DNA from: a virus
Direction: 5' to 3' (one strand)
IMG/VR virus record: IMGVR_UViG_3300020159_000120
Coordinates: 1 to 34,451 of that record
DNA: 34,451 nt
Shown here: in pieces, positions 5,114-24,236 of the stretch
Numbering within the stretch: the first letter of the stretch is position 1
Layout: each line of letters starts with the position of its first letter
The notes under the pieces: generated by a model
Told to the model about the DNA's origin: nothing
Database searches by the model: none
The model's input: only the letters and a program-made list of their open reading frames with translations
Position numbers and translations under genes: made by a program

Positions 5114-5470
5114 ATGAAAAAGAATGTAGCGGATTTTATTTCCACCATGCTGCACAGCGGCACGGTCACCCATTTCATGCATTTGGCAACCGATTCCTTT
5201 GCGGTTCACTCGGCTTTGGGCAAATATTACGTTGAAATTATCGATTTAACCGACCAATTTGCCGAGGCATACGCCGGTTGCTACGAAAAAATCAAAGACT
5301 ATCCCGAAAACTTTCACAACGCCAAAGACCCCGTAAAGTACATGGCAAGCATTAAAACTTACATTGACAAAAACCGCACCGCTTTGCCCGAAGAAAGCCA
5401 ACTTCAAAACATTGTGGACGAAATTGCCGCTTTGGTTGATTCAACAATTTTCATGCTAACCCTTAAATGA
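5114..5470 (+). CDS. DUF5856 / Dps-like helical protein (118 aa)
   Basis: The chain is all-helical. MKKNVADFISTMLHSGTVTH, then FMHLATDSFAVHSALGKYYV and IIDLTDQFAEAYAG resemble the first helices of ferritin-like starvation proteins. This matches the DUF5856 family of phage proteins, with conserved His residues (HSGTVTHFMH, FAVHSAL) and an acidic second helix. Whether it binds metal is not shown. It overlaps the glycosyltransferase gene by 4 nt (ATGA), so the two are probably made together. Confidence 0.7.
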   Translation: MKKNVADFISTMLHSGTVTHFMHLATDSFAVHSALGKYYVEIIDLTDQFAEAYAGCYEKIKDYPENFHNAKDPVKYMASIKTYIDKNRTALPEESQLQNIVDEIAALVDSTIFMLTLK

Positions 5471-6144
5471 TCCGAATATTTGCCGGATACGACCCTCGGG
5501 AAGCCATTGGTTACCATGTATTTTGTCAATCGGTCATAGAGCGCACAAAGGAGCCGGTGGCAATTACGCCGTTTTACGGCAAACAACGGGACGGCACAAA
5601 CGCTTTTATTTACCAAAGATTCTTAGTCCCATATTTCACAAAGTTTAAGGGCCGCGCCATCTTTATGGACGCAAGCGATATGTTGATGCTGGGCGACATA
5701 GACGACCTAAACAAGCTATTTGACCCGACAAAGGCCGTGCAAGTGGTAAAGCACGAGTACAAGACCCAGCACGCAAGAAAGTATATTGGAACGCCAATGG
5801 AGGCCAAGAACGAAGACTATCCAAGGAAAAACTGGTCAAGCCTTATCCTGTGGAACTGCGAACACCCAAGAAACAAGGTGCTTACACCCGATTACATTGA
5901 CGACCATAGCGGGTCGGAATTACACCGCTTTGGCTGGCTGCCCGACTCTTTGATTGGTGAACTACCCAAACATTGGAACGTTTTGGTAGGCGAACAACAC
6001 AACCCTAACGCCAAGATTGCCCACTACACCTTGGGCATTCCCGAATTTGACCATTACGCCGATTGCGATTATGCTAAACAATGGTTCAACACTAAAAGCC
6101 GAATGTTGGACGGCCTAATTAAAATGAAAGAACTAACCAATTGA
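5467..6144 (+). CDS. Glycosyltransferase, GT8-like (225 aa)
   Basis: MIRIFAGYDPREAIGYHVFC resembles small nucleotide-sugar transferases, and GRAIFMDASDMLMLGDIDDL has an acidic Asp68-x-x-Asp71 motif where GT-A enzymes bind metal and sugar nucleotide. NWSSLILWNCEHPRN and a conserved HYTLGIPEF near the C-terminus fit the same fold. It would transfer a sugar to DNA, protein or a host glycan; the target cannot be told. Its neighbours are a DUF5856 gene and a ParB/methyltransferase pair, so DNA modification is one option. Confidence 0.75.
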   Translation: MIRIFAGYDPREAIGYHVFCQSVIERTKEPVAITPFYGKQRDGTNAFIYQRFLVPYFTKFKGRAIFMDASDMLMLGDIDDLNKLFDPTKAVQVVKHEYKTQHARKYIGTPMEAKNEDYPRKNWSSLILWNCEHPRNKVLTPDYIDDHSGSELHRFGWLPDSLIGELPKHWNVLVGEQHNPNAKIAHYTLGIPEFDHYADCDYAKQWFNTKSRMLDGLIKMKELTN

Positions 6145-6641
6145 AAATTACCCAAAAAAAGGTTGAAAGCCTAATTCCCTACATAAACAACAGCCGGACT
6201 CACTCGGATGCACAAGTAGCGCAGATTGCGGCAAGCATCAAAGAGTTTGGCTGGACTAATCCAATCTTGGTAGATGGATCAAATGGCATTATTGCCGGGC
6301 ATGGACGATTGCTTGCTGCCCGTAAACTAGGGTTTAAGGAAGTGCCAGTCATAGAATTGGCAGACCTAACCGACACCCAACGCAAAGCTTACATTATTGC
6401 CGATAATAAACTTGCTTTAAATGCGGAATGGGATAAAGAAATATTATCTATTGAATTAGGAACATTGCAAGGAGTTAATTTTAATATTGATTTATTAGGA
6501 TTTGATGCAATTGAATTATCTGATTTATTTGATGAGCAAATTAAAATGCCAGAATCAAGTAGTGAAGAAATTGATATAGATGAATACAACATGAATTGTA
6601 AATGTCCTAAATGTGGATTTGAATTTGATGCAAAAACCTGA
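6141..6641 (+). CDS. ParB-like nuclease-domain protein with C-terminal zinc motif
   Basis: It starts at TTG 6141, overlapping the previous stop by 4 nt. Residues 1-100 form a ParB N-terminal domain: VESLIPYINNSRTHSD, then GIIAGHGRLLAARKLGFKEV with the GHGR box at 53-56, then IIADNKLALNAEWD. The C-terminus ends with CKCPKCGFEFD, a small zinc knuckle. Such proteins commonly sit next to, or are fused to, phage DNA methyltransferases, as here. The 3' half is strongly AT-rich (13 G/C in 60 bases at 6481-6540), unlike the start of the gene. Confidence 0.85.
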   Translation: MKITQKKVESLIPYINNSRTHSDAQVAQIAASIKEFGWTNPILVDGSNGIIAGHGRLLAARKLGFKEVPVIELADLTDTQRKAYIIADNKLALNAEWDKEILSIELGTLQGVNFNIDLLGFDAIELSDLFDEQIKMPESSSEEIDIDEYNMNCKCPKCGFEFDAKT

Positions 6642-7686
6642 TTGCGCATGGAACCTTACGGATTTGGCAGATGTGCCAAAGAATGGCGTCAAAGTAATGA
6701 GCACTTTTGCCTGTGGTGGTGGTTCCAGCATGGGTTACAAACGCGCCGGTTGCGAAGTAATTGCGGCCAATGATATTGATCCTGAGATGGCCTGGCATTA
6801 TCAACTCAACATCAAGCCTAAACATTATTTTCTTTGTCCCATTGGGGAATTGATAGAAAAGGAATTGCCAGAAGAACTTTACAACCTAGACATTCTTGAT
6901 GGCTCCCCTCCTTGTTCAACATTTAGCATGGCAGGTAGCCGAGAAAAAGCCTGGGGTAAAGACAAACATTTTAGGGAAGGCCAAACCAAACAAGTGCTAT
7001 CGGATTTGTTCTTTGATTACCTTGACCTAGTTGGAAAGCTAAAGCCAAAGGTGGCTATTGCTGAGAACGTTAAAGGAATGCTCATTGGCAATGCCAAGGG
7101 TTACACCAAAATGGTGATGGCAAGATTTAAAGAATTAGGTTACAGGCCGCAATTGTTCCTATTAAATAGTGCTGATTGTGGTGTTCCACAAAGGCGTGAA
7201 CGGGTTTTCTTTGTAGCCATCCGTGATGACATTAAAGTTCCGCCATTAAAATTAGCCCCAAAACATCAATGGATAAATTGCGGAAATGCCACAAAAGATT
7301 TAAAAATAACTTTGGATGAATTGGAAGAAGTTAAATTTACAGCTAATACAGATTTAATCTGGTGGCCAAAAACACGACCTGGTGAAGATTATGGAGATGC
7401 TGTAAAACGTACAGGAAAACCTGTCAAATTATGGAATTCAAAAAAACTTGATTCAAATGCGCCATCTTTAACATTGACGGCAACTCATACAATGTTTAAA
7501 CATTGGAAAGAACCAAGACATTTAACATTTAGAGAATATGTTAGGCTTGGATCATTTCCTGATGATTACAAAACAAAAAATAATAAAATTGGTAAATATA
7601 TGATTGGTATGTCGGTCCCGCCTAAGATGACAGAACAAGTGGCAAAAGCTGTATGCAATCAATGGTTAAATGTTAAACTAGCATAA
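6613..7686 (+). CDS. DNA (cytosine-5) methyltransferase
   Basis: Motifs appear in order: I FACGGGSSMG (32-41), IV GSPPCSTFS with the catalytic Cys101, VI ENV (151-153), VIII QRRERVFFVA (193-202), and a C-terminal motif X-like GMSVPPKMTEQVAKAV. The 357-aa length suits a solitary C5 methylase. No restriction gene is near, so protection against host restriction is likely; target bases cannot be read. It overlaps the ParB-like gene by 29 nt; Met6 (6628) is an alternative start. The last third is AT-rich, as in the neighbouring gene's 3' half. Confidence 0.93.
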   Translation: MDLNLMQKPDCAWNLTDLADVPKNGVKVMSTFACGGGSSMGYKRAGCEVIAANDIDPEMAWHYQLNIKPKHYFLCPIGELIEKELPEELYNLDILDGSPPCSTFSMAGSREKAWGKDKHFREGQTKQVLSDLFFDYLDLVGKLKPKVAIAENVKGMLIGNAKGYTKMVMARFKELGYRPQLFLLNSADCGVPQRRERVFFVAIRDDIKVPPLKLAPKHQWINCGNATKDLKITLDELEEVKFTANTDLIWWPKTRPGEDYGDAVKRTGKPVKLWNSKKLDSNAPSLTLTATHTMFKHWKEPRHLTFREYVRLGSFPDDYKTKNNKIGKYMIGMSVPPKMTEQVAKAVCNQWLNVKLA

Positions 7687-9620: not shown

Positions 9621-11938
9621 TGGCCTACCAAGAAACCGGTGCTTACGAGGGCGATGATCCTGGCCCGTATTGGCACGACCAAATCGAATCCGCGCAAAAG
9701 GTTTTTGATAAATGGGAAAAACGCGGGCATAAAATTATTAAGCGGTATCGGGATGAGCGCGATGCGGTAGAAATGCCCCGTGTTCGATACAACATTCTTT
9801 GGTCAAACATCCAAGTGTTGTTTCCCGCGCTATACGGACGGCAAGCAAAACCCGAAGTTTCCCGCCGTTACATGGATCAAGACCCCGTGGGCCGTCTGGC
9901 ATCAACAATGCTGGAACGGGTTATGGAATATGAAACCATGCAATTTGGCGACTTTGACAATGCCATGCGCGGCGCGGTGGAAGACCGTTTGTTGCCTGGT
10001 CGCGGCACGGCATGGATTCGCTACGAGCCGGTAATTGTTAACGAACAACCCGAAGTAAGTGAGGCCGCCGGTCAAATGGAGGAACCAGGTGAGGCGCAGA
10101 TTTACGATGCCGTAGAGGAGCCAACCGAGCGCATTGATGCGGCGCACAGCCCCATTGATTACGTTTATTGGACGGACTTCTTGCATTCGCCAGCCCGCAC
10201 ATGGGATGAAGTATGGTGGGTCGCCCGCGCCGTCTACATGACCAAAGACGAAGGCATAGAGCGTTTTGGCGATGTGTTTAAGAACGTTGGCTTAGACAGT
10301 AGCAACACGGACATGGATGCTAAAAATCCAATGACCGCTAAAAACACCTATGACAAAAAAGCAAAGGTGTTTGAGATTTGGAACAAGCGCACCGGCAAGG
10401 TTTGCTGGGTGGCAAAGGGTTATCCACAAGCGTTAGATGAGCGTGACGATCCGTTGGAATTGGAAGAATTCTTTCCATGCCCGCGTCCGTTGATGTCAAC
10501 TACCACCACCGGCACAATGATCCCTGTGCCCGATTATTGTGAGTACGAAGACCAAGCGCAGGAACTAGACAACCTAACACAGCGCATTTTCTTGCTTACC
10601 AAAGCCTGTAAAGCCGTTGGCGTGTTCAATGCCGAATTCAAGGAACTAGGCCGTTTGTTTACCGAAGGCGTAGACAACAAGCTTTTCCCCGTTACCGCAT
10701 GGGCGGCAATGTCGGAAAAAGGTGGGCTAAAGGGTGCTATCGACATGATGGACACCTCAACCATCATTGTGACCTTACGGGAACTTTACTCGGCGCGGGA
10801 ACAAGTCAAGCAAGCAATTTACGAGATTATGGGCATCTCGGACATTTTGCGCGGCGCATCAAAAGCGCAAGAAACACTTGGCGCACAGCAGTTAAAAGCA
10901 AACTTTGGCAGCTTACGGATGCGAAGCAGCCAAGGCGATGTGGCGCGGTTTGCTTCCGACATTTTTAAGCTAAAAGCGCAAGTCATTTGCAAGTTTTACC
11001 CGCCAGAGTTGATTGTGCAGATGTCAGGTGTAATGGACACCGAAGATGGTAAAGACCCGCAATTGCTGCAAGCCGCCGTGCAAATGTTGTCCAACAGCAC
11101 AATCCGCGATTTCCATATTGCGGTTGAGGCCGATAGCCTAGCGCAAATTGACGAACAAGCGGAAAAACAAGGCGCACAAGAGGCCATCCAAGCCATTGGA
11201 CTGTTTTTGCGTGAGGCAATCCCAATGATTAGCCAAGCGCCCGAAACTTTGCCAATGGCTTCCGAAATGCTGCTGTTTTTGGTTCGCCGCTTCCGTGCTG
11301 GTCGCGGGTTGGAAAGCGCCGTAGAACGCGCTATGAAAGCGTTGGAGCAAAAAGCGGCAATGGCACAACAACAACCGCCTGGCCCCAATCCCGAGCAATT
11401 GAAGATTGAAGCGCAAAACCAAACCGAGCAAATGAAGATGCAAGTTACGGCGCAAGCGGAACAAGCACGGATGCAAGCAGATGCACAAAGGGCGCAAATG
11501 CAAGCCCAGTTAGATATGCAAAAGCACCAAGCGCAATTGCAAGCGGATATGCAACTTGCCCAAATGAAGGCAGATTTTGAAACCGCCATGCAAAACAACG
11601 AACTGCAAATAAAAGCCCGAGAAATGGCGGGAAGGGAAGAATACGAACGATGGAAAGCCGAATTGGATGCAGCAACCAAGATTATGGTGGCACGCATTGG
11701 TAGCAATCCTGGCGTAGATTTACCAGTGGTTGAGGCAGCGGCTGCACAAATAACCAATGAACTAGGCGGCACAATTATTCAAGCAATGGACAAAATAACC
11801 GCTTTGCACGACAACATGGCAAATTTGCATGGCGAATCTATGCAAAACATTGGCACGGCTATGCAAAAACTAAGCGCACCTAAACGTGTAATTCGTGGCC
11901 CCGATGGAATGGTAATAGGCGTGGAGGCCGTCCAATGA
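9620..11938 (+). CDS. Portal protein, P22-like (772 aa)
   Basis: At 772 aa it is close to P22 gp1 (725). The N-terminal region (YWHDQIESAQKVFDKWEKRG, then YNILWSNIQVLFPALYGRQA) is typical of P22-type portals, and the core is in the wing and stem order. Residues about 590-680 are almost purely Gln/Met/Ala/Glu helix (QMKMQVTAQAEQARMQADAQ), a long coiled coil comparable to the C-terminal barrel of P22 portal. It forms the dodecameric DNA gate and the base for the tail. An unusually long Gln-rich tail is the only oddity. Confidence 0.9.
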   Translation: MAYQETGAYEGDDPGPYWHDQIESAQKVFDKWEKRGHKIIKRYRDERDAVEMPRVRYNILWSNIQVLFPALYGRQAKPEVSRRYMDQDPVGRLASTMLERVMEYETMQFGDFDNAMRGAVEDRLLPGRGTAWIRYEPVIVNEQPEVSEAAGQMEEPGEAQIYDAVEEPTERIDAAHSPIDYVYWTDFLHSPARTWDEVWWVARAVYMTKDEGIERFGDVFKNVGLDSSNTDMDAKNPMTAKNTYDKKAKVFEIWNKRTGKVCWVAKGYPQALDERDDPLELEEFFPCPRPLMSTTTTGTMIPVPDYCEYEDQAQELDNLTQRIFLLTKACKAVGVFNAEFKELGRLFTEGVDNKLFPVTAWAAMSEKGGLKGAIDMMDTSTIIVTLRELYSAREQVKQAIYEIMGISDILRGASKAQETLGAQQLKANFGSLRMRSSQGDVARFASDIFKLKAQVICKFYPPELIVQMSGVMDTEDGKDPQLLQAAVQMLSNSTIRDFHIAVEADSLAQIDEQAEKQGAQEAIQAIGLFLREAIPMISQAPETLPMASEMLLFLVRRFRAGRGLESAVERAMKALEQKAAMAQQQPPGPNPEQLKIEAQNQTEQMKMQVTAQAEQARMQADAQRAQMQAQLDMQKHQAQLQADMQLAQMKADFETAMQNNELQIKAREMAGREEYERWKAELDAATKIMVARIGSNPGVDLPVVEAAAAQITNELGGTIIQAMDKITALHDNMANLHGESMQNIGTAMQKLSAPKRVIRGPDGMVIGVEAVQ

Positions 11939-12795
11939 GCCTTGTTTTAGCGGATCGCGTTAGACAAACATCCACAACAACGGGATCAGGCACATTTACG
12001 TTAGATGGTTCGGTTGCGGGTTTTCAATCCTTTAGCGCAATTGGCAATGGCAATACAACTTATTACACCATTTCGTTAGATTCCCAATGGGAAGTGGGCA
12101 TTGGGACGTATTCTGCGGGCACATTGTCCCGTGACACGGTAATTTCCTCTAGCACAGGAAGCAAAATTTCATTTGCCGCTGGTGCAAAAGATGTGTTTGT
12201 GTCTTACCCCGCAGAAAAATCGGTAAATCAAGACGCAAATAATCGTGTTTTGATACCTTACACATCAGGCGTAACCGATGTAGGTTCTTTAAATGTAGGT
12301 GATGCAACATTACACACCGATTCCGGCGTTATTGCTGGGTTTACCGCAAGTGAACCGCTTTATTTGTACACTAGCTTACAAAACACAAGCGAAGCTAATA
12401 CAAGTTATGCATCGTATGCGGTTAACGATGGTGGTCATACGGCTTACGGTGAGTTAGGAATAAATAACGCAAATTACAGCTATTCAGCAGCGGGTTTTCC
12501 TAACAATGGCTTTAGCGCCCCACTAGCCTCTTTTGTGGAATCATATGGTGGCCCATTAGTATTAGGTAGCTGGGACAATCAAAAAATTAGTTTTATTATT
12601 AATGGCTCGGTTAGTACAACTGATGTAATGACATTAAACACTAATGGTTCGGTTGCATTTAATGGGCAAGTTGGAACTGCTGGACAAGTCTTACAAAGCA
12701 ATGCAACAAGCGCACCAACTTGGGTAACCCCTAGCGGTGGTAGTGGAATTACAACCGGTAAAAGTATCGCAATGGCGATGATCTTTGGATATTAA
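11935..12795 (+). CDS. Fibre-like virion protein (286 aa)
   Basis: The N-terminus, LVLADRVRQTSTTTGSGTFT then LDGSVAGFQSFSAIGNGNT, is a frequent attachment-type module of phage structural proteins. The rest is beta-rich with no Cys. Near the C-terminus AGQVLQSNATSAPTWVTP repeats a motif also present in the tail fibre at 29799-30833. It lies between portal and scaffold genes, not in the tail region, so a head-surface fibre is possible. ATGA couples it to the portal gene. Confidence 0.75.
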   Translation: MSLVLADRVRQTSTTTGSGTFTLDGSVAGFQSFSAIGNGNTTYYTISLDSQWEVGIGTYSAGTLSRDTVISSSTGSKISFAAGAKDVFVSYPAEKSVNQDANNRVLIPYTSGVTDVGSLNVGDATLHTDSGVIAGFTASEPLYLYTSLQNTSEANTSYASYAVNDGGHTAYGELGINNANYSYSAAGFPNNGFSAPLASFVESYGGPLVLGSWDNQKISFIINGSVSTTDVMTLNTNGSVAFNGQVGTAGQVLQSNATSAPTWVTPSGGSGITTGKSIAMAMIFGY

Positions 12796-12797
12796 TT

Positions 12798-13169
12798 ATG
12801 GCAAACCCTAACATTGTTAACGTAACATCAATTTACGGCAACACAAGCTATTTGATTCCAGGCACTACGGCGGCTACAACTTGGACGGCACTTACTCCCG
12901 CATCAAACACTGTCAACAAGATTGATAACATTGTTGCGTCTAATGTCACTGCATCCGCAGCTACCGTGACTGTAGCGATCAATAGCGCAGCGGGCGGCGC
13001 GGGTACAAACTATCGTTTGATTTACCAAGTAACTGTCCCAATCAACGCCGCGATTGTGATTGTGGACAAAAGCACGGCCTTTTACTTGGGTGAAGCGCAG
13101 TCTATTGTGGTGACTGTTGGTACAGCAAGCGCAATTGAATTAACGGCATCGTATGAGGCCATTACCTAA
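12798..13169 (+). CDS. Small beta-sandwich-like virion protein (123 aa)
   Basis: The 123-aa sequence is Thr/Ala/Val-rich with regular strands (NIVASNVTASAATVTVAINS, then YRLIYQVTVPINAAIVIVDK, then QSIVVTVGTASAIELTASYE). This is the look of small decoration or fibre-accessory proteins seen in many aquatic phages. TAATG overlap links it to the glycine-rich gene. The exact role is unknown. Confidence 0.75.
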   Translation: MANPNIVNVTSIYGNTSYLIPGTTAATTWTALTPASNTVNKIDNIVASNVTASAATVTVAINSAAGGAGTNYRLIYQVTVPINAAIVIVDKSTAFYLGEAQSIVVTVGTASAIELTASYEAIT

Positions 13170-14176
13170 TGTCTACTAGATATAAGGCTTCTTTAATGTC
13201 GCCAATTGCGGCGACAAACTCTTCTACCGCTGCTGCTGGAATTTGGAAATTATCTGATCAACTACAAGCCCAGCAAGCAGGAGCATGGCCCAATGCTAAC
13301 GCAATTAATGCAACATATTTAGTTGTTGCTGGCGGCGGCGCTGGCGGTGCTTATTACTATGGTGGTGGGGGCGGAGCTGGTGGACTTACAACCAATAATG
13401 GTGGTGCAGCATTTACTATCCCAGCAGGGTCAGGAGCATATGCTGTAATTGTTGGAGCAGGTGGAACAGGTAGCTCTACTACACCAACAAACGGAAATAC
13501 ATCGTCACTTATTGGAACGGGGCTATCTATCTCTACGGTAGGAGGCGGTAGGGGGGGCGCATACTTTAGTGGTAATCCAGGCCCATTATCTGGCGGCTCG
13601 GGCGGTGGTGGTGCATCAACAACCAATACAAATGCAGCTGGAACAAGTGGACAAGGATTTGCTGGTGGTCTTGGCTCAACTACCGCTGGATATGGTGGCG
13701 GTGGTGGTGGCTCTGGTGGAATAGGAACTTCGGGTCAAGGCACAACAAGCCCCGCTGGTACGGGCGGCATTGGAACTAATTTAGCGTCTTTAATAAGTAC
13801 TACTCTTGCAACAAGTTCTAGTGTGGGTTATGTCACTGGCGCACAAGTTCAGTTTGCAGGTGGAGGAGGAGGCAGTAGAGATGCTAACTTAGGTAGCGGC
13901 GGAGCAATTGCACCTGGTTCCGCAGGCGGTGGTGCTGGCGCCATTTATACTTCAGGAAATTTTCCTGGCGCTGGTCAAGCATATACCGGATCTGGTGGTG
14001 GCGGCGCATGTCACACTGGAACAGGAAATTCGGTTAGCGGCAACGGCGGCAAAGGTGTAGTCATTATTAAATACCCAGCAGCAGCAGCTTTAGCTACTGG
14101 CGGCGACATAATAAATGTTAGCGGTGGGTATGTTACCCACATATTTAAAAACAGTGGATCGTTTACACCAATATAG
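13169..14176 (+). CDS. Glycine-rich adhesin-like fibre protein (335 aa)
   Basis: After a 50-residue N-terminal segment, ATYLVVAGGGAGG opens a glycine-rich domain that runs to KGVVIIKYP (about 52-305). It is full of GGGGGAGG, GSGGGG and GGGGGSGG blocks. The C-terminus ends YVTHIFKNSGSFTPI, typical of this phage glycine-rich family. Polyglycine-helix tips of this sort act as receptor-binding adhesins in T-even-like phages; a similar role here is inferred. Its place among head genes is unusual. It ends in TAG. Confidence 0.8.
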   Translation: MSTRYKASLMSPIAATNSSTAAAGIWKLSDQLQAQQAGAWPNANAINATYLVVAGGGAGGAYYYGGGGGAGGLTTNNGGAAFTIPAGSGAYAVIVGAGGTGSSTTPTNGNTSSLIGTGLSISTVGGGRGGAYFSGNPGPLSGGSGGGGASTTNTNAAGTSGQGFAGGLGSTTAGYGGGGGGSGGIGTSGQGTTSPAGTGGIGTNLASLISTTLATSSSVGYVTGAQVQFAGGGGGSRDANLGSGGAIAPGSAGGGAGAIYTSGNFPGAGQAYTGSGGGGACHTGTGNSVSGNGGKGVVIIKYPAAAALATGGDIINVSGGYVTHIFKNSGSFTPI

Positions 14177-16384: not shown

Positions 16385-17365
16385 ATGGCATACGCAAATG
16401 CAAACTACTCAGACGTTTTGGCAACAACCATTGAATCGCGTTCCGGCACAGTCGCCGATAACGTGACCAAAAACAATGCTTTGCTAACCCGTCTGCGTGA
16501 AAAAGGACGGTACAAGCCGTTCACCGGCGGTTCGACCATTCTTCAAGAATTGTCCTTCCAAGCCAACTCAACCGCAATGTACTACTCGGGCGCTGAAGTC
16601 TTGGACATCAGCCCTGCGGACGTTATCAGCGCGGCTCAGTTCCCAATCAAGCAGGCCGCCGTCGCGGTGACCATCAATGGCTTGGAAATGCTCCAAAACA
16701 GCGGCGAAGAACAAATCATCGATTTGTTTGACGCACGTTTGGACGTTGCCGAGGCATCGATTGAGAACTTGATCAGCACCGGTATTTATTCGGACGGTAC
16801 GGCTAACAACGGCAAGCAAATCACCGGTTTGCAAGCTATGGTTGTCGCATCACCCGCCACCGGCGTAGTTGGCGGTATTGACCGCGCTACTTGGTCTTTC
16901 TGGCGCAATCAAACGTTTGACTTTTCAACCGACCTCGGCGCATCCGCATCGTCTTCCAACATCCAAACCGGTTTTAACCGCTTGTATGCCAAGACCTCTC
17001 GCGGTAGCGATGTTGTTGACTTGATTTTGTTGGACAACAACCTGTGGGGCTTCTTCATGTCGTCTCTGCAAAACATTCAGCGTTTCCCTGGCTCTAGCAA
17101 AATGGCCGAACTTGGCTTTGTTGCAAGCAAGTACATGAACGCTGACGTAGTGTTGGATGGTGGTATCGGCGGCAATATCCCCGCCTCGACTGGCTATTTC
17201 TTGAATAGCAAGTACATCTTCTTCCGACCACACGCAAACCGCAACTTCGTCCCAATTGGCGATGAGCGTATGAGTACCAACCAAGATGCCATCGTGCGCT
17301 TGATTGGATGGGCTGGCAATATGACCGCTTCGGGACTTCAGTTCCAAGGCGTTATGACTGAATAA
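16385..17365 (+). CDS. Major capsid protein
   Basis: The 326-aa protein has a strong AGGAG upstream of ATG 16385. Features fit an HK97-fold coat: an N-terminal helix (ATTIESRSGTVADNVTKNNA), then an E-loop-like beta segment, a spine helix (EEQIIDLFDARLDVAEASIE) and a C-terminal GDERMSTNQDAIVRLIGWAG. The gene is GC-richer than its neighbours (37 of 60 at 16621-16680), in keeping with high expression. It follows the scaffold and precedes the decoration gene. I am confident in the role, less so in the subfamily. Confidence 0.9.
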   Translation: MAYANANYSDVLATTIESRSGTVADNVTKNNALLTRLREKGRYKPFTGGSTILQELSFQANSTAMYYSGAEVLDISPADVISAAQFPIKQAAVAVTINGLEMLQNSGEEQIIDLFDARLDVAEASIENLISTGIYSDGTANNGKQITGLQAMVVASPATGVVGGIDRATWSFWRNQTFDFSTDLGASASSSNIQTGFNRLYAKTSRGSDVVDLILLDNNLWGFFMSSLQNIQRFPGSSKMAELGFVASKYMNADVVLDGGIGGNIPASTGYFLNSKYIFFRPHANRNFVPIGDERMSTNQDAIVRLIGWAGNMTASGLQFQGVMTE

Positions 17366-17376
17366 GGGGAATCATC

Positions 17377-17910
17377 ATGGCTGATTACGTCACCGATGGA
17401 AAAATTGGCATTGACCTAACCGCAACCTATGCGTCTACGTCTGCCGGTTCCACTACCTTGTTTCCGGTTACTCCTGGTAGCCGAGTAAACACTTCCAACA
17501 ACGGCGTGTATATGTTTGTCCGCGCCGAATCCACCATCAACGCTTATGATGCTGTGATCATGTCCACTTATGCAGATTCGGCGAGTACAACTCCCGTAAT
17601 GCGTGCTGTACCTGTGACCACCACCAATGCTGCGGCGCTGGGTTTTAACATGGTTGGCTTTGCACAAACCGCGATTGCCTCTAGCTACTACGGCTGGGTT
17701 GGTCTGAATGGTTTGCTCAAGGTTAACTTGCTGGTAGCTTGCCAGCCTAAAGTGCCTTTGTACACCACCTCCACCGCTGGATCGCTGGATGACACAACCG
17801 TGTCTGCCGGTTTCATCCAAGGTATTGTGGCTAATACCTCGGCAACGTCAGCGTCTGCACCATTTTGCATGGTCAACAATGCTGGCTTGATCATGGTCGG
17901 AGCAGGCTAA
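17377..17910 (+). CDS. Head decoration / cement-like protein (177 aa)
   Basis: The 177-aa protein is beta-rich and Ala/Ser/Thr-rich (DLTATYASTSAGSTTLFPVT, then YMFVRAESTINAYDAVIMST, then FAQTAIASSYYGWVGLNGLL). It sits 11 nt after the capsid gene with GGGGA upstream. Size, position and strand content match decoration proteins that lock the expanded shell. A terminator-like hairpin follows at once, so this gene closes the capsid transcript. Confidence 0.8.
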   Translation: MADYVTDGKIGIDLTATYASTSAGSTTLFPVTPGSRVNTSNNGVYMFVRAESTINAYDAVIMSTYADSASTTPVMRAVPVTTTNAAALGFNMVGFAQTAIASSYYGWVGLNGLLKVNLLVACQPKVPLYTTSTAGSLDDTTVSAGFIQGIVANTSATSASAPFCMVNNAGLIMVGAG

Positions 17911-17918
17911 GACGGATT

Positions 17919-17944
17919 CCCCGCTAAAGAAGCGGGGTTTTCTT
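17919..17944 (+). terminator. Intrinsic terminator after the head genes
   Basis: CCCCGCT (17919-17925) pairs with AGCGGGG (17931-17937) around a 5-nt AAAGA loop, and TTTTCTT follows. This is a canonical rho-independent terminator. The next gene starts at 17946, so the 3' arm and U-tract lie where its ribosome site should be. Confidence 0.85.
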
Positions 17945-17945
17945 A

Positions 17946-19586
17946 ATGAGTTTTTTACCCCTTAAAGTTACCGGTCAATGTGTCGCGGATGATGACACGC
18001 TTTTCGCGCATATGGATGCCGCAATAGCGCGAGGGTATCCGCAAGTTACCGAAAAGCAAGACGTAAAGACCGGCCCGATTTTGTTGGTGGCAAGTGCCCC
18101 AAGTGTTAAAGGGCAAATAGAACTTATCAAGAAAATGCAAGCAGCCGGTGCGCCGGTTGTTGCCATTAAGGGCGCACACGATTGGTTAATTGACAACGGC
18201 GTGATCCCCGACTACGCTTTAGCAATTGACCCGCAAGAACATCGGATTGCGTTCTACAAGCCGCACAAAGCCGTGCGGTACATGATTGCTTCGCAATGCC
18301 ATCCGGCAATGTTTGATAACCTTGCGGGCTACAATGTAACCCTATGGCATCCATACGTTATGAAGGGCCAAACGCGCCCCAAATCGTCTATGTTGATAGG
18401 TGGTGGCACAACGTCCGGCCTTCGCGCTATTTCCTTGTTTTATGTTCTTGGATACCGCCAATTTGAATTGTTTGGGTTTGATTCCTGTAACACCGGTGAA
18501 GCGTTACGGGTTAACGGCGATGGCCTAAAAAATGGCGACAAGCTGATTGAAGTCAGAATCGACCCTGATGGCGAAACTTTCCATTGCAATACGGCAATGG
18601 CGTTGCAAGCCGAGCATTTTCAAACTTATTACGACTACTTACCGGATGCGGTTTTCAATGGTCATGGGCATGGACTAATCCAAGCCATTATCCGCAAAAG
18701 GGAAGAAAACATGATGACATTGGGCAACATTATTAACACTCAAACGCAGCAAAATGATAGTGTTTCGTTTATCCATTTTGGCGATCATTGGTCGGCAAGT
18801 TGGCGCTACAGGGCAAAGATACCGTCGGGCGATTGGGCAAGCCTTAATGATTTGACCGCGGGAACACTAATTTTTGCCAAACCGCAAGCGCATGAACTAA
18901 TGGACATGGCACGGGCTAAAGCGCGTGGCGCACGGGTAATTGTGGACTTTTGCGACGACCATTTTGATTGGATGCATTACGCCGAGGCTTTACGAATTGC
19001 GGATGCGGTAACTTGTCCAACCCAAGAAATGGCAAAACGCATTAAGGCATTGGGCTATGAGGCAACGGTAATTCCAGACCCATTTGAATACGAAGAAATT
19101 CCGCCGCATTGCACTGGTGTCAATTTGCTTTGGTACGGTCATGCCGTCAACAAACAAAGTTTGCAGCGGATTTTGCCGGACATTGAAGAATATCCTTTGC
19201 GGGTTGTGTCCAACTTTGCCGGTGCAATTCCTTGGTCGCATGAAACCATGTTGAAGGAATTTGCCCGCGCTGACATCGTAATAATTCCCGCTACGGATAC
19301 TTACAAAAGCCCAAATCGGGCAATTGAGGCAACCCGACAAGGTTGTTTTGTGGTCGCGGAGCCGCATCCGGCTTTGGACGGCTTTCCTGGCATCTGGATT
19401 GGTAACATTAAAGAGGGCATCAAATGGACAACACAAAGGAACGTGTGGAGAAATATCTCGGCGGCGCAAAAATTCGTGATGGAAAAATATTCGCCGCAAA
19501 TAGTGATCGATGCATGGAAGACGATTACGAAACGGCCTATAACCTTGGATGCGGCAAAAAGCACTGGAACGGATGGGTTAACGTAG
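17946..19586 (+). CDS. MptE/Maf-like (DUF115) domain fused to a glycosyltransferase
   Basis: Residues about 40-190 form an MptE/Maf (DUF115)-like domain: GPILLVASAPSVKGQIELIK, GAHDWLIDNGVIPDYALAID, an SSMLIGGGTTSGLRA glycine loop and LGYRQFELFGFDSC. The paralogue at 20008-20742 shares these blocks. Residues about 260-520 look like a GT-B half, with ADAVTCPTQEMAKRIKALGY, TVIPDPFEYEE and the C-terminal DIVIIPATDTYKSPNRAIEA, where such enzymes bind nucleotide sugar. Maf proteins add nonulosonic acids to flagellin. A virion or host glycan target is inferred. No clear ribosome site precedes it. Confidence 0.7.
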   Translation: MSFLPLKVTGQCVADDDTLFAHMDAAIARGYPQVTEKQDVKTGPILLVASAPSVKGQIELIKKMQAAGAPVVAIKGAHDWLIDNGVIPDYALAIDPQEHRIAFYKPHKAVRYMIASQCHPAMFDNLAGYNVTLWHPYVMKGQTRPKSSMLIGGGTTSGLRAISLFYVLGYRQFELFGFDSCNTGEALRVNGDGLKNGDKLIEVRIDPDGETFHCNTAMALQAEHFQTYYDYLPDAVFNGHGHGLIQAIIRKREENMMTLGNIINTQTQQNDSVSFIHFGDHWSASWRYRAKIPSGDWASLNDLTAGTLIFAKPQAHELMDMARAKARGARVIVDFCDDHFDWMHYAEALRIADAVTCPTQEMAKRIKALGYEATVIPDPFEYEEIPPHCTGVNLLWYGHAVNKQSLQRILPDIEEYPLRVVSNFAGAIPWSHETMLKEFARADIVIIPATDTYKSPNRAIEATRQGCFVVAEPHPALDGFPGIWIGNIKEGIKWTTQRNVWRNISAAQKFVMEKYSPQIVIDAWKTITKRPITLDAAKSTGTDGLT

Positions 19587-20026
19587 ACCTTTATTCGGAT
19601 GTTTCGGACATTAAATGCGACTTGCGTAAGCTTGAACTTGCAAGCAATTCAGCCGATGCGGTTGCCGCCATTCATGTGTTGGAGCATTTTTACGAATGGG
19701 AAGTACACGCATTGCTAACCGAATGGATGCGCGTGCTAAAGCCAGGCGGCAAGATGATTCTTGAACTTCCGTGCATGGACAAGGTGTTTGCTTACATCCA
19801 CAATTGCGTAGTGCAAAAACAGCCTTTGCAGCCGTTTATGACCACCTATGCGCTATGGGGTGATCCAAAGTATAAAGACCCCGCTATGTGCCACCGTTGG
19901 GGTTGGTTTGAAACCCCGTTGCGCCAAATGCTGCAATCCGTAGGCATGGAACGCATCGAATTTCTTGACCCGCGCTATCATTTTCCGTTTAGAGATATGA
20001 GGGTTGAATGCTACAAGGTGTCCTAA
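19424..20026 (+). CDS. SAM-dependent methyltransferase, class I (200 aa)
   Basis: Motif I is YNLGCGKKHWNGWVNVDLYS (SAM loop and acidic end of strand 2), followed by SADAVAAIHVLEHFYEWEVH and MRVLKPGGKMILELP, the usual signature of small class I methyltransferases that act on sugars or lipids. The ATG at 19424 has GAGGG six bases upstream but lies 163 nt inside the previous gene; ATG 19514 would still leave a 73-nt overlap and a complete domain. It is flanked by two MptE/Maf-like genes, so an O-methyl glycan decoration is a reasonable guess. Confidence 0.85.
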   Translation: MDNTKERVEKYLGGAKIRDGKIFAANSDRCMEDDYETAYNLGCGKKHWNGWVNVDLYSDVSDIKCDLRKLELASNSADAVAAIHVLEHFYEWEVHALLTEWMRVLKPGGKMILELPCMDKVFAYIHNCVVQKQPLQPFMTTYALWGDPKYKDPAMCHRWGWFETPLRQMLQSVGMERIEFLDPRYHFPFRDMRVECYKVS

Positions 20027-20742
20027 GTAACGCCGAGCGCCATGCCCAAATGTCGCAGGCAAATGGGCAAATGCTCAAGAAAAGGCCCAAATTTAACAAT
20101 AAATGGGCATCAATTGTTTGTTATGGCCCAAGCCTTGCGGACACATGGAAATTGATAAAACGCCCAATTGTTACGGTGTCAGGGGCGCATGATTACCTTG
20201 TAAAGCGCGGGATTGTGCCCGATTTCCATGTTGATTGCGACCCAAGGGAACACAAAGCACGGATGCTGCAAAACCCTCAAAGCAAGACAATTTATTTAAT
20301 GGCGACGGTTTGCCATCCAAAATATTGGGAAGTGCTAAAGGGCCACAATGTACGGCTTTGGCATCTAATCAACGGCGATGACCTAGAAACCGTGGCTTGG
20401 GTGCTAGAAAACCATCCAGAAGGCGCAAATAGCATGATTGGCGGTGGTAGTACGGTTGGGCAACGGGCAATGAATGTCATGGCGGCGTTAGGCTACCGGC
20501 GATTTAACGTCCACGGCATGGATTGTTCATTTACAACCGACCGGCACGCTGGGCCACATTTTGGTAAAGAACAAGCTAAAATCTTTGTGAAAGCTGGAAA
20601 CAGGGTGTTTCAGACCACAAGACAAATGCTACAAGCGGCGATTGAGATGGAGCAATTCATCACAACTCAGGATGCGGAGGTCGCATTTTTCGGTGATGGT
20701 TTAATGCAGGAAACCGCACTTCAACTAAAGGAAATGGCATGA
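20008..20742 (+). CDS. Second MptE/Maf-like (DUF115) protein (244 aa)
   Basis: The 244-aa protein carries only the MptE/Maf-like domain: KWASIVCYGPSLADTWKLIK, GAHDYLVKRGIVPDFHVDCD, PREHKARMLQ, CHPKYWEVLKGHNVRLWH, NSMIGGGSTVGQRAMN and LGYRRFNVHGMDCSF. These blocks align in order with the N-terminal half of the 17946-19586 product, so the two are paralogues. It overlaps the methyltransferase by 19 nt; starts at 20050 or 20071 are alternatives. The domain may bind a phosphorylated small molecule or a sugar nucleotide. Confidence 0.75.
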   Translation: MLQGVLSNAERHAQMSQANGQMLKKRPKFNNKWASIVCYGPSLADTWKLIKRPIVTVSGAHDYLVKRGIVPDFHVDCDPREHKARMLQNPQSKTIYLMATVCHPKYWEVLKGHNVRLWHLINGDDLETVAWVLENHPEGANSMIGGGSTVGQRAMNVMAALGYRRFNVHGMDCSFTTDRHAGPHFGKEQAKIFVKAGNRVFQTTRQMLQAAIEMEQFITTQDAEVAFFGDGLMQETALQLKEMA

Positions 20743-21326
20743 AGAACGAGACGGCTGGATGGACAAACGAAAGTTTCATGGAGGACAACCGCGGCAAGAT
20801 GGCGGTGTTTTTCCATGCGGTTCAAGTCAAAAACAACTTTAAAACGGAAATGGAAAAGCGCCCAATCTTTGAGGAACGCATTTTCTTGAAAAAGCTTGTT
20901 CCAGGGGATTCAACGCTAGTGGTTGACCGCCCAATGCGTGAAATTGATAAAGAAGACTACCCTATTGAATGGGCACGGTTTGAGCAAAAGAAAGAGCAAA
21001 AATCCGACGGCACACCAATTGACGCATGGATGGCAATTAATGACACGCAAAAGGCCGAATTTAAGGCATTGCATATCTTTACGATTGACCAGTTTGCCAA
21101 GCTACCGGACAGCGCAGGTAACAAAATCATGGGCTTTAATGATTTAAGAACCAAAGCCCGCGCATTTATTGGGGCGGCACAAGATAGCCAGATGATGGAC
21201 AGAATTCGCGCCGAAACCGATGAAAAATTAAAGGCGCAAGAGGTTGAAATGTCCGAACTTCGTGCGATGATTGCGGAACTAACATCCAAAAAAGCGGGTA
21301 GACCCCGCAAAGAAACGGTGGAATAA
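20739..21326 (+). CDS. Hypothetical structural-module protein (195 aa)
   Basis: The 195-aa protein shares an ATGA overlap with the glycan cassette. The first half has FFHAVQVKNNFKTEMEKRPI, then FEERIFLKKLVPGDSTLVVD and EDYPIEWARFEQKKEQKSDG. The second half has an ALHIFTIDQFAKLPDSAGNK turn, as in small helix-hairpin domains, then a coiled coil (ETDEKLKAQEVEMSELRAMI) and a basic end with AGRPRK, an AT-hook-like box. It lies ahead of the connector gene and could be a head-completion or DNA-contact protein. No family is named. Confidence 0.7.
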   Translation: MKNETAGWTNESFMEDNRGKMAVFFHAVQVKNNFKTEMEKRPIFEERIFLKKLVPGDSTLVVDRPMREIDKEDYPIEWARFEQKKEQKSDGTPIDAWMAINDTQKAEFKALHIFTIDQFAKLPDSAGNKIMGFNDLRTKARAFIGAAQDSQMMDRIRAETDEKLKAQEVEMSELRAMIAELTSKKAGRPRKETVE

Positions 21327-22244
21327 ATGGCCTACACATTATTACAATTGATTGACCAAGTTTCGGGCGAACTGGGCTTGTCCCAACCAACTGTAGTAAT
21401 TGGCTCCACCAACAATCAAAGCACGCAGTTTTTAGCTTTGGCGCAAAGGTTAGGCAAAGACCTAGTGCGTGAATTTGAATGGCAACGCTTGGTTAAAGCT
21501 TACGTCTTGCAAACAACCGCCGGAATAAGCACCATTGGCACAATTACGGCGGGGTCAAAGGTCATCACTAGCATGGGAACGACCGCTGGCTTAGAGGTGG
21601 GAAATGTGGTCACGGGCACGGGCCAAGCGCCATATGCTGAAATTTTGACCATTGATTCGTTAACCCAAGTAACCTTAAATACGCCGGTTGCAACTTCTAC
21701 GGCGGCGGTGTCCATGACGTTTGCAAAACAAGACTATGCAATGCCAAGCGATTTTGACCGCATGATTTCCGATACCAATTGGGATCGAACAAACCATTGG
21801 CGCAATCTTGGAACAAAGACTAGCCAAGAATGGCAATGGTTGCAAGGCGGCATTATTTCGGTTGGCCCAAGGGAACGCTATCGTATTTACAACAATCGAT
21901 TGCGTATTTTCCAAGCTTTAACAAGCATTTACACCTTTGCGTTTGAATACGTTAGCAATTATTGGGTGATGAGTAGCGGGGCAACGGCTGGCGACAAAGG
22001 CGCGTTTACCGCCGATACCGACACAACAATCTTTCCCGATGACCTTATGTTGGCGGGTTTAAAGTTTTATTTTCTTAAAGCCAAAAAGCTAGATTACTCC
22101 GTTGAATTGGGCGAATTTATGCGTGCGCTAAGTTACACCAAGGCGCAAGATGTGCCCGTACCGGCGCAATCTCTTGCCCCAATTGGCATGAATCCGCTGG
22201 TTGGCCCGTGGAGTGTTCAAGATGGCAACTGGCCCGCACAATAA
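21327..22244 (+). CDS. Head-tail connector protein, P22 gp4-like position (305 aa)
   Basis: An N-terminal helical region (LLQLIDQVSGELGLSQPTVV, then FLALAQRLGKDLVREFEWQR) is followed by a beta insert (residues about 60-135) and a helical C-terminal part (LMLAGLKFYFLKAKKLDYSV). Small helical proteins of this type act as adaptors under the portal. Its order, just before a large beta-rich hub gene, equals gp4 then gp10 in P22. The role is inferred from fold pattern and order, and the 305-aa length exceeds P22 gp4. Confidence 0.65.
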   Translation: MAYTLLQLIDQVSGELGLSQPTVVIGSTNNQSTQFLALAQRLGKDLVREFEWQRLVKAYVLQTTAGISTIGTITAGSKVITSMGTTAGLEVGNVVTGTGQAPYAEILTIDSLTQVTLNTPVATSTAAVSMTFAKQDYAMPSDFDRMISDTNWDRTNHWRNLGTKTSQEWQWLQGGIISVGPRERYRIYNNRLRIFQALTSIYTFAFEYVSNYWVMSSGATAGDKGAFTADTDTTIFPDDLMLAGLKFYFLKAKKLDYSVELGEFMRALSYTKAQDVPVPAQSLAPIGMNPLVGPWSVQDGNWPAQ

Positions 22245-22255
22245 AACAAAAACTA

Positions 22256-23803
22256 ATGTTAAATTCATTTGCCAACAAGCCGTCAACACAACGAAGCCAA
22301 TCGGTTTCGGTAGCTGCGCCTATTGGCGGTTGGAATGCCCGTGATTCTTTGGGCGCAATGGATCCATTGGATGCCGTTACCCTGACAAACTTTTGGCCTG
22401 GCACAAACTCGGTCATTTTGCGAAACGGATACACCAAATACGCTACTGGCATTACCGGCGTGGTGCAAAGCCTATTTGCTTATAGTTCGGGCACATCCAA
22501 CAAGTTGTTTGCCGTAGCGGTAGATTCAATTTACGATGTTACGGCAGGCGGCGCGGTTGGTGCTGCTAGTGTTACCGGCCTATCAAACGCCAAATTTCAA
22601 TACATCAACATTACGACTACAGGCGGCTCTTATTTGATGTGTGTAAACGGTGCGGACAAGCTTCGCACTTTTGATGGAACATCTTGGCACAAAGATGGCG
22701 ATGGTGCGCCTTACGACATAACAGGCGTGGATACCGCAAATTGTGCAAACATTACGTTGTTTAAAAACCGTGTGTGGTTGGTGGAAAATAATTCCTTAAA
22801 AGCTTGGTATTTGCCCACTAACAGCATTGGTGGCGCAGCAGTAGCATTGGACATGACCAGCTTGGTGCAATTGGGCGGCTACATCATGGCTGGCATGACT
22901 TGGACGCTAGACGCTGGCTATGGCGTGGATGATTACCTTGCGTTCATCACAAGCAATGGTGAGGTTGTAGTCTGGCGGTTAACTGATCCCACAACGCCAA
23001 GCGGCATTGCAATGATTGGTTTATGGCAACTTGGCGCACCTATTGGTCGGCGGTGCTGGATCAAATACGGCGGTGATTTGTTATTGATTACCCAAGATGG
23101 CGTAATGCCAATGTCGGGTTCTTTGCAATCAAGCCGCCTTGATCCTCGGGTGTCTATTACCAACAAAATTCAATTTGCGGTAAGCCAAGCGGTTAGTTCT
23201 TATGGGCAAAACTTTGGTTGGAATTTGCTTTACTACCCCAAAGAAAACCAACTTTACTTAAATGTGCCAATTGCGTCGGGGCAAGAGCAGCAATATGTGA
23301 TGAACACCATCACTAAAAGCTGGTGTAACTTTACGGGTTGGAGCGCCAATTGTTGGGAAATTTGGCAAGATGATCCCTATTTTGGCGGCAATGGCTACGT
23401 TGGTTTAGCTTGGCAAGGCTCGGTGGATGACACATCCAACATCAATGGTTTTGCCTTGCAAAGCTTTCAAAATTACGGAACATCTACCCAAAAGCAATGC
23501 AAGATGATTCGTTATCATTTGCTAAGTAACGGCACGCCGTCTATTTTTGGCAATGTAAACGTTGATTACAACTTAGACAACAATAGCGCCCAATTAAGTT
23601 TTTCCGCTTCGCAATTTGGCACTTGGGATAGTGCTTTGTGGGACATTTCCTATTGGGGCGGCGGGTTGTCACCTACCGCCGATTGGCAAGGAACAACGGG
23701 GATTGGATATTCTTTTGCTCCCACGTTGAACACAGCTACGCAGGGTATAGAATTGCAATGGGTCGCAACCGACTTGGTGTTTGAGGCTGGTGGTGTCCTT
23801 TGA
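22256..23803 (+). CDS. Tail hub / DNA-stabilisation protein, P22 gp10-like (515 aa)
   Basis: ATG 22256 is chosen, 11 nt after the connector stop; a start at 22208 would add 16 basic residues within that gene. The 515-aa chain starts APIGGWNARDSLGAMDPLDA, TLTNFWPGTNSVILRNGYTK, a conserved opening of podovirus hub proteins. It goes on with repeated strand-turn units rich in Trp, Gly and Tyr, suggesting a beta-propeller. In P22, gp10 plugs the portal-gp4 stack and holds the tailspikes and needle. This assignment is by pattern and order. Confidence 0.7.
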   Translation: MLNSFANKPSTQRSQSVSVAAPIGGWNARDSLGAMDPLDAVTLTNFWPGTNSVILRNGYTKYATGITGVVQSLFAYSSGTSNKLFAVAVDSIYDVTAGGAVGAASVTGLSNAKFQYINITTTGGSYLMCVNGADKLRTFDGTSWHKDGDGAPYDITGVDTANCANITLFKNRVWLVENNSLKAWYLPTNSIGGAAVALDMTSLVQLGGYIMAGMTWTLDAGYGVDDYLAFITSNGEVVVWRLTDPTTPSGIAMIGLWQLGAPIGRRCWIKYGGDLLLITQDGVMPMSGSLQSSRLDPRVSITNKIQFAVSQAVSSYGQNFGWNLLYYPKENQLYLNVPIASGQEQQYVMNTITKSWCNFTGWSANCWEIWQDDPYFGGNGYVGLAWQGSVDDTSNINGFALQSFQNYGTSTQKQCKMIRYHLLSNGTPSIFGNVNVDYNLDNNSAQLSFSASQFGTWDSALWDISYWGGGLSPTADWQGTTGIGYSFAPTLNTATQGIELQWVATDLVFEAGGVL

Positions 23804-24236
23804 GATCACTTCCGACCATGCAGCAGGGCACTGGACTGCACAAAAGGTCGATGGTGGCTACTTTCAAGAGCGCAGCCGGTCTATCGGGTTGAAGAAAAAC
23901 GGCGAATTTGTTGCCGGTGTTATTTACGAAAACTGGCATGGCAGGTCAATTACTTGCCATATTGCAGTCACCGGACGCATGACATCGGCCTATTTAGGCG
24001 CTATTTTCCACTACCCGTTTAATGTTTGTAAGGTCGGCAAAATCATTGTGCCGGTTAGCAGCGCAAACATTGCAAGCATCAAATTTGTTGAAAAAATGGG
24101 CTTTCTAGAGGAAGCACGGATTAAAGATGCAATGGCTGATGGGGATATGGTAATCCTCACAATGCCAAAAGAACGATGCAAATATTTGGAGTATAGATAT
24201 GGGAAAACAAGCACCAACGCCACCGGCAACGCCTGA
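23793..24236 (+). CDS. GNAT-family acetyltransferase (147 aa)
   Basis: GTG 23793 is selected because GAGG lies six bases before it; TTG 23781 is also in frame. The sequence shows the GNAT order: strands with GVIYENWHGRSITCHIAV, then the CoA-side helix region (YLGAIFHYPFNVCKVGKIIV), and the typical C-terminal motif NIASIKFVEKMGFLEEARIK. It may acetylate a host or virion protein or a small molecule. Both flanking genes overlap it (11 and 38 nt), so it belongs to the tail transcript. Its function there is unclear. Confidence 0.8.
   Translation: MSFEITSDHAAGHWTAQKVDGGYFQERSRSIGLKKNGEFVAGVIYENWHGRSITCHIAVTGRMTSAYLGAIFHYPFNVCKVGKIIVPVSSANIASIKFVEKMGFLEEARIKDAMADGDMVILTMPKERCKYLEYRYGKTSTNATGNA

Follow-up and report, generated by a model that had tools for sequence, protein, structure and literature searches.

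The window analysed here is the whole 34.45-kb stretch of the IMG/VR virus record IMGVR_UViG_3300020159_000120, from a bacterial virus of freshwater type. Between a decoration-like gene on one side and an Mx8 p50-like gene followed by a head-tail adaptor gene on the other, it carries three genes, here called MptE-GT, MT and MptE2. The outer two encode domains that resemble Maf flagellin glycosyltransferases, and the middle one encodes a class I methyltransferase. We refer to the interval as the slot and to the three genes as the trio. Head operons of many phages carry a probable glycan cassette, and the trio represents one form of it. The nearest named relatives of the capsid protein are Stenotrophomonas phage BUCT555 (57%), Bradyrhizobium phage ppBjS10J-1 (52%) and Myxococcus phage Mx8 (51%), and the window is therefore classed, by its capsid protein, as an Mx8-like podovirus.

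All three open reading frames are intact at the positions given in Table 1. Both MptE proteins exceeded the curated cut-off of PF01973 (34.6 bits): MptE-GT matched over residues 41–183 (E 4.7e-17, 62.7 bits) and MptE2 over residues 15–177 (E 2.8e-19, 70.0 bits). The cut-off was passed in records of the window's group of close relatives as well. MT matched Methyltransf_11 (PF08241) with E 8e-11 and 42.9 bits, against a cut-off of 21.2, and its NLGCG motif is invariant. A sequence-only reading of this DNA had described two DUF115/MptE-type proteins flanking a class I methyltransferase between decoration and connector genes; the domain families agreed with this, as did the flanking genes for the major capsid protein (MCP), the decoration-like protein, the p50-like protein and the SU10-type adaptor. 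MptE-GT and MptE2 aligned with 30% identity over 222 columns (E 1e-28) and have in common the motifs GAHD[WY]L, CHP, NV[TR]LWH, IGGG[TS]T[SV]G[LQ]RA and LGYR. All the motifs listed in that reading were found, with the correction that its IPD is VPD in MptE2.

MptE2 was modelled with AlphaFold2 on 36 window and locus sequences, which gave a predicted local distance difference test (pLDDT) score of 90.3 and a predicted template modelling (pTM) score of 0.89. The top Foldseek match was to Maf glycosyltransferase 5mu5 (E 5.9e-8, TM 0.71), followed by the archaeal MptE 8sd5, a 6-hydroxymethylpterin diphosphokinase. With VIA-align, Maf 5mu5 scored Z 19.9 (3.1 Å over 216 residues), MptE 8sd5 13.9, SteA about 9.5, and CstII and other sialyltransferases about 9. 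The sequence profile matched 5mu5 with E 1.4e-5 and 8sd5 with E 0.023. The likeness to Maf that had been proposed is thus borne out by fold and by profile.

The model of full-length MptE-GT was poor (pLDDT 60, pTM 0.45). In this low-confidence model, residues 33–252 matched Maf 5mu5 with Z 15.9, and residues 269–533 matched the GT4-type GT-B enzymes BshA, SenB and TarM with Z 12–13. PF13524 was matched by 11 of 11 homologues of the C-terminal part and PF13692 by eight of them, all weakly (best 1.4e-4), and the window protein itself reached 17.7 bits against a Pfam glycosyltransferase cut-off of 28.5. The C terminus of MptE-GT is likely to be a GT-B glycosyltransferase; the fusion that had been suggested is consistent with these matches, at scores below the Pfam cut-offs. 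Scores of 17.3 and 20.3 bits with the NCBIfam model FlagModPseD, for which the cut-off is 670, fall short of what would mark the two proteins as Maf flagellin glycosyltransferases proper. The three-domain layout of Maf around a central PF01973 was not seen either, MptE2 having one domain and MptE-GT consisting of PF01973 and the GT-B-like part. Family profiles of the GT-B-like and GT8-like proteins found no convincing solved relative, and none of the PHROGs families was close to the MptE domains.

A GT8-like gene lies apart from the trio in the window. Its product is 32–41% identical to the products of GT8-like genes found in the slot of relatives, and the gene is present in 30 of 30 group records. 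PF01501 was matched by eight of 15 members of the GT8-like family (best 1.1e-5), with 14.5 bits for the window protein against a cut-off of 24.3. A DxD-like site is present in the homologues and is altered in the window protein.

Conservation and origin of the trio

Searches with MptE-GT and MptE2 each yielded about 80 close loci. The order MCP or decoration gene, MptE-GT, MT, MptE2, p50 and adaptor was kept in all 107 loci spanning the slot, a set with some redundancy. As this set had been chosen by MptE, conservation was re-examined in relatives chosen by MCP, and the trio was found in every one of these (at least 96% MCP identity) with enough downstream sequence. Median ratios of non-synonymous to synonymous substitution rates (dN/dS) were 0.10 for MptE-GT, 0.10 for MT and 0.058 for MptE2; the corresponding values were 0.046 (MCP) and 0.095 (decoration gene). 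The trio is under purifying selection, and decay is ruled out by dN/dS values of 0.06–0.10 together with intact reading frames.

An intrinsic-terminator-like hairpin lies in the gap between the decoration gene and MptE-GT (17911–17945), and its run of T residues extends up to the start codon of MptE-GT. The stem sequence varies across variants in the group with pairing kept, and folding energies range from -15 to -19.5 kcal/mol. This hairpin suggests that the enzymes are expressed below the level of the capsid proteins. MT starts inside MptE-GT in another frame, and the resulting overlap of 163 nt (19424–19586), conserved at 151–163 nt in relatives, is a predicted dual-coding stretch. A conserved Shine-Dalgarno-like sequence, AAAGAGGG, precedes the MT ATG within the MptE-GT reading frame. 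An alternative MT start at codon 31 (ATG or GTG in relatives) was weighed against the upstream ATG, which has the more favourable ribosome site.

The origin of the two MptE domains was addressed with a maximum-likelihood tree of 53 such domains, which has long branches and was rooted at its midpoint. MptE2 formed one group (100/100), placed with methyltransferase-fused domains and nearest to those of contigs L265, L267 and L270 (88/79). MptE-GT lay across a starred split from MptE2 and on the same side as the only MptE of L237. This L237 is a prophage-like region from Burkholderiales, and its lone MptE gene directly precedes the portal gene. The paralogues therefore appear from the tree to be two old lineages, the details of which are unsure because of the long L237 branch and the midpoint root. 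A recent tandem duplication was rejected on the same placements; the earlier description of the genes as duplicated has to be corrected, and a duplication in place is not supported. A search of viral contigs with the lone L237 MptE gave no match.

The slot in distant relatives and isolated phages

In Mx8 the slot is empty and in BUCT555 it holds holin/endolysin genes; PF01973 was absent from anywhere in six named relatives (Mx8, BUCT555, ppBjS10J-1, MW202489, RHph_I3_18 and Mwe-JY13). Distant relatives were retrieved by capsid similarity or by an MptE profile (best 80 of 394 relatives) built mainly from Mx8-like phages, and their head location is therefore not a fully independent result. We compared 19 non-redundant contigs outside the window group (L236, L239, L241, L253–L257, L259–L261, L263–L265, L267, L269, L270, L279 and L304). 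A GT8-like gene was present in 17 of the 19 and a fusion of MT to MptE in 15, and adaptor or p52 homologues lay close downstream in all 19. In L236 a single gene fills the slot, and its product joins a methyltransferase to an MptE2-like domain. In the slot of L241, a GT8-like gene is accompanied by another GT-A-like gene, assigned by eye from its DxD motif, and by a fusion of a PF13578 methyltransferase to MptE. Two distinct phages, L261 and L264, have an additional gene for GDP-mannose 4,6-dehydratase (E 7e-122 and 1e-118), an enzyme that acts on sugar nucleotides. The type of methyltransferase changes between lineages (PF08241, PF13489, PF13578) and the MptE partner is constant.

The GT8-like genes, the MT-MptE fusions and the dehydratase in these distant contigs are the strongest evidence for a glycan cassette in the slot. 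The glycan role that had been put forward for the trio gains support to this extent, from the GT8-like genes, other methyltransferases and dehydratase in the slot of relatives. In phages of the L261/L264 type, at least one enzyme probably uses a GDP-6-deoxysugar as its donor. Since the dehydratase occurs in some phages, the glycans probably vary between phages. Linkage of glycosyltransferase genes to virion genes was found in the 107 loci, in the relatives chosen by MCP and in the distant contigs.

Two of these contigs yielded further observations. L299, which shares a contig with L261, has a second MptE-like gene (5770–6606) between the portal and glycine-rich genes, besides the copy in the usual slot. 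The phage contig VGFF01000055.1, which corresponds to L236, has been binned with a metagenome-assembled genome of Armatimonadetes, and an IMG/VR contig of equal length (13974) is 100% identical to it in the MT-MptE gene.

Among the phages in INPHARED, MptE2 had no match even at E 5 and MptE-GT none at E 1e-5; a search there with the MptE domain of a relative gave no match either. Caulobacter phages CcrColossus and CcrPW (L331, 5620–10173; L337, 6623–10289) carry adjoining homologues of the slot-type MT and GT8-like genes, a few genes past a large tail gene. In CcrColossus they also come a few genes past a gene annotated as alpha-2,3-sialyltransferase-like, the product of which, gp126, matched the MptE2-family profile weakly, with E 4e-4 in a small search and with an hhalign probability of 27%. 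In podovirus MW202512 the MT and GT8-like genes lie in the interval between the capsid and stabilization (p52-like) genes, and no match to the MptE profile was found within the stretch covered. Tetraselmis viridis virus S20 (L335, NC_020840, 4692–10275) has two sialyltransferase-like genes, glycosyltransferase genes and an MT gene between its capsid-region and head-closure genes; phmmer with a sialyltransferase-like protein of S20 found no PDB match. Proteins of uncultured phages that are named MptE-like in BFVD share the fold, and one of these, of 714 aa, is named as a methyltransferase.

Proposed function and rival explanations

Our preferred reading, to which we assign a probability of about 0.55, is that the trio and the displaced GT8-like gene form a phage-encoded glycan cassette, which most likely glycosylates a head protein with a methylated glycan. 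We infer the enzymatic activities, donor, acceptor and order of steps as follows. The Maf-like domains would act in the cytoplasm, ahead of assembly or while it proceeds, and would place a sugar on Ser/Thr of a head protein, either the MCP or the decoration protein. Extension by the GT-B and GT8-like enzymes would follow, and MT would methylate the glycan. The donor may be a keto-sugar activated by cytidine monophosphate (CMP), one candidate being CMP-Kdo (Kdo, 3-deoxy-D-manno-oct-2-ulosonic acid), which is made by Gram-negative hosts. The terminator before MptE-GT would keep the enzymes scarcer than the capsid proteins, and the two Maf-like proteins could serve two acceptors or two sugars. 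More tentatively, the capsid might be self-glycosylated by the Maf-like enzymes with a keto-sugar of the Kdo or nonulosonic acid type, much as flagellin is glycosylated in bacteria, and the sugar might be capped by the methyltransferase that many lineages have fused to the Maf domain.

Several points weigh against glycosylation of a head protein by this route. An invariant AHD motif sets the phage family apart from aligned Maf and MptE sequences, and the chemistry may therefore differ from that of Maf. The GT8-like gene of the window is outside the head operon, homologous GT8-like genes are also found apart from capsid genes, as in Pelagibacter phage Mosig, and the lone MptE of L237 has neither a glycosyltransferase nor an MT gene beside it. 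The window yielded no gene for nonulosonic-acid synthesis, and a place in a late operon is not enough to make the virion the target.

The same enzymes might instead alter the host surface, lipopolysaccharide (LPS) or capsule, late in infection; receptors would be hidden, which would prevent re-adsorption of progeny or exclude other phages. The GT8, GT4-like and GDP-mannose dehydratase families are characteristic of pathways that make surface polysaccharides, a profile matched the Kdo transferase WaaZ weakly (E 0.16), and the enzymes are without a strongly hydrophobic segment, like many cytosolic LPS glycosyltransferases. We nevertheless consider a host-surface target rather unlikely, as the position in the head operon is fixed in diverse phages, the nearest fold is that of a protein O-glycosyltransferase, and no seroconversion-type acetyltransferase or flippase was recognised beside the cassette. 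Fusions of MT to MptE in many lineages, and the repeated pairing of varied methyltransferase types with MptE, make it improbable that MT acts separately from the MptE domains, on protein (lysine or N-terminus) or on a small molecule, at an insertion site tolerant of accessory genes. In favour of such separate action, the holin/endolysin genes of BUCT555 indicate that the slot accepts cargo, and flagellins bearing Maf glycans are also lysine-methylated (PMC9290775).

Glycosylation or hypermodification of phage DNA is very improbable for genes that sit in the head operon, and none of the window proteins scanned was recognised as a hydroxymethylase, a thymidylate-synthase-like protein or a base kinase. 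It would accord with a separate DNA methyltransferase gene at 6613–7686 and with a statement, cited in PMC12619734, that phage glycosyltransferases often modify DNA. The name of PF01973, of which archaeal MptE is a member, and the second-nearest fold would make the MptE domains pterin diphosphokinases; this we regard as scarcely credible, because the match to archaeal MptE (Z 13.9) is clearly lower than that to Maf (Z 19.9), other pterin genes were not recognised in the window, and the partners of the domains are glycan enzymes.

Glycosylation of a head protein can be compared with systems already described. Maf flagellin glycosyltransferases (PF01973; M. magneticum 5mu5, Clostridium, Campylobacter) belong to the same domain family as MptE2 and have the nearest fold. 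Maf enzymes attach nonulosonic acids to Ser/Thr of flagellin, and that of Clostridium also takes CMP-Neu5Ac and CMP-Kdo (PMC11339370). The Maf N-terminal domain has been described as weakly methyltransferase-like (PMC11339370), which is echoed by the MT-MptE fusions of phage relatives. The phage proteins differ from Maf in lying in a head operon and not in a flagellin locus with nonulosonic-acid genes, in having a single domain or a fusion to GT-B or methyltransferase, in the conserved AHD motif and in showing no Maf-type C-terminal domain. GT42-type sialyltransferases such as CstII have a fold related to that of MptE2 and are of another sequence family; the alpha-2,3-sialyltransferase genes of S20 and CcrColossus, which in S20 lie beside MT and glycosyltransferase genes, likewise differ from MptE2 in sequence family.

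The sequence-only reading knew of no described phage system with this arrangement. That goes too far: mycobacteriophages Che8, Corndog and Myrna were shown to have virions glycosylated by phage enzymes (Freeman et al. 2023, as cited in PMC12363180 and PMC12619734), and database phages such as S20 have comparable cassettes that are built differently. The mycobacteriophages likewise encode glycosyltransferases proposed to decorate virion proteins. Che8 gp108–110, however, could not be matched to any of the MT, MptE, GT8-like and GT-B-like families of the window, and the Che8 genes lie near the genome end, whereas the window cassette is in the head operon; the function in Che8 was demonstrated, whereas that of the window cassette is predicted from its genes. 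Neither phage MptE/DUF115 systems nor Maf-like domains in phage head operons were found described in the open literature searched. Phage-encoded virion glycosylation is known, and we infer that the window cassette, with its Maf-like domains in the head operon, belongs among such systems. If so, glycosylation of particle proteins would be common in uncultured environmental phages and would have recruited the flagellin-glycosylation fold. Many phage genes called MptE-like, after a pterin kinase, would be misnamed, and gene content would become a better guide to the chemistry of the phage surface, on which adsorption, stability and the evasion of binding proteins bear. Cultivated Caulobacter phages with comparable cassettes would offer a laboratory-accessible system.

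Features of the window

Table 1. Genes and signals of the putative glycan cassette and adjoining head genes
Feature	Position	Strand	Basis
MptE-GT: Maf/MptE-like domain (aa ~33–252) and likely compact GT-B-like glycosyltransferase domain (aa ~269–533)	17946..19586	+	PF01973; low-confidence model
MT: class I S-adenosylmethionine-dependent methyltransferase	19424..20026	+	PF08241
MptE2: single-domain Maf/MptE-like protein, 244 aa	20008..20742	+	PF01973; AlphaFold2 model
GT8-like glycosyltransferase, upstream of terminase	5467..6144	+	Homology to GT8-like genes of the slot
Intrinsic-terminator-like hairpin between decoration gene and MptE-GT	17919..17937	+	Hairpin kept in all variants
MCP, candidate acceptor	16385..17365	+	phrog_9953, E 1.5e-106
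Decoration-like virion protein, 22.6% Ser+Thr, candidate acceptor	17377..17910	+	phrog_29386, E 6.6e-5; composition
Mx8 p50-like gene, downstream edge of slot	20739..21326	+	Homology
SU10-type head-tail adaptor	21327..22244	+	PF24175, E 1.4e-6; phrog_6013, E 2.4e-43

Two other regions of the window may be mentioned. The interval between portal and capsid genes contains genes for glycine-rich (Gly_rich_2) and fibre-like proteins (13169–14176 and 11935–12795), and the gene starting at 13169, with homologues in very few group loci, looks variable. Among the tail and structural genes, an acyl-CoA N-acyltransferase-like gene was found at 23781–24236 (phrog_4470, E 2.5e-33), and Mx8-like relatives have one too.

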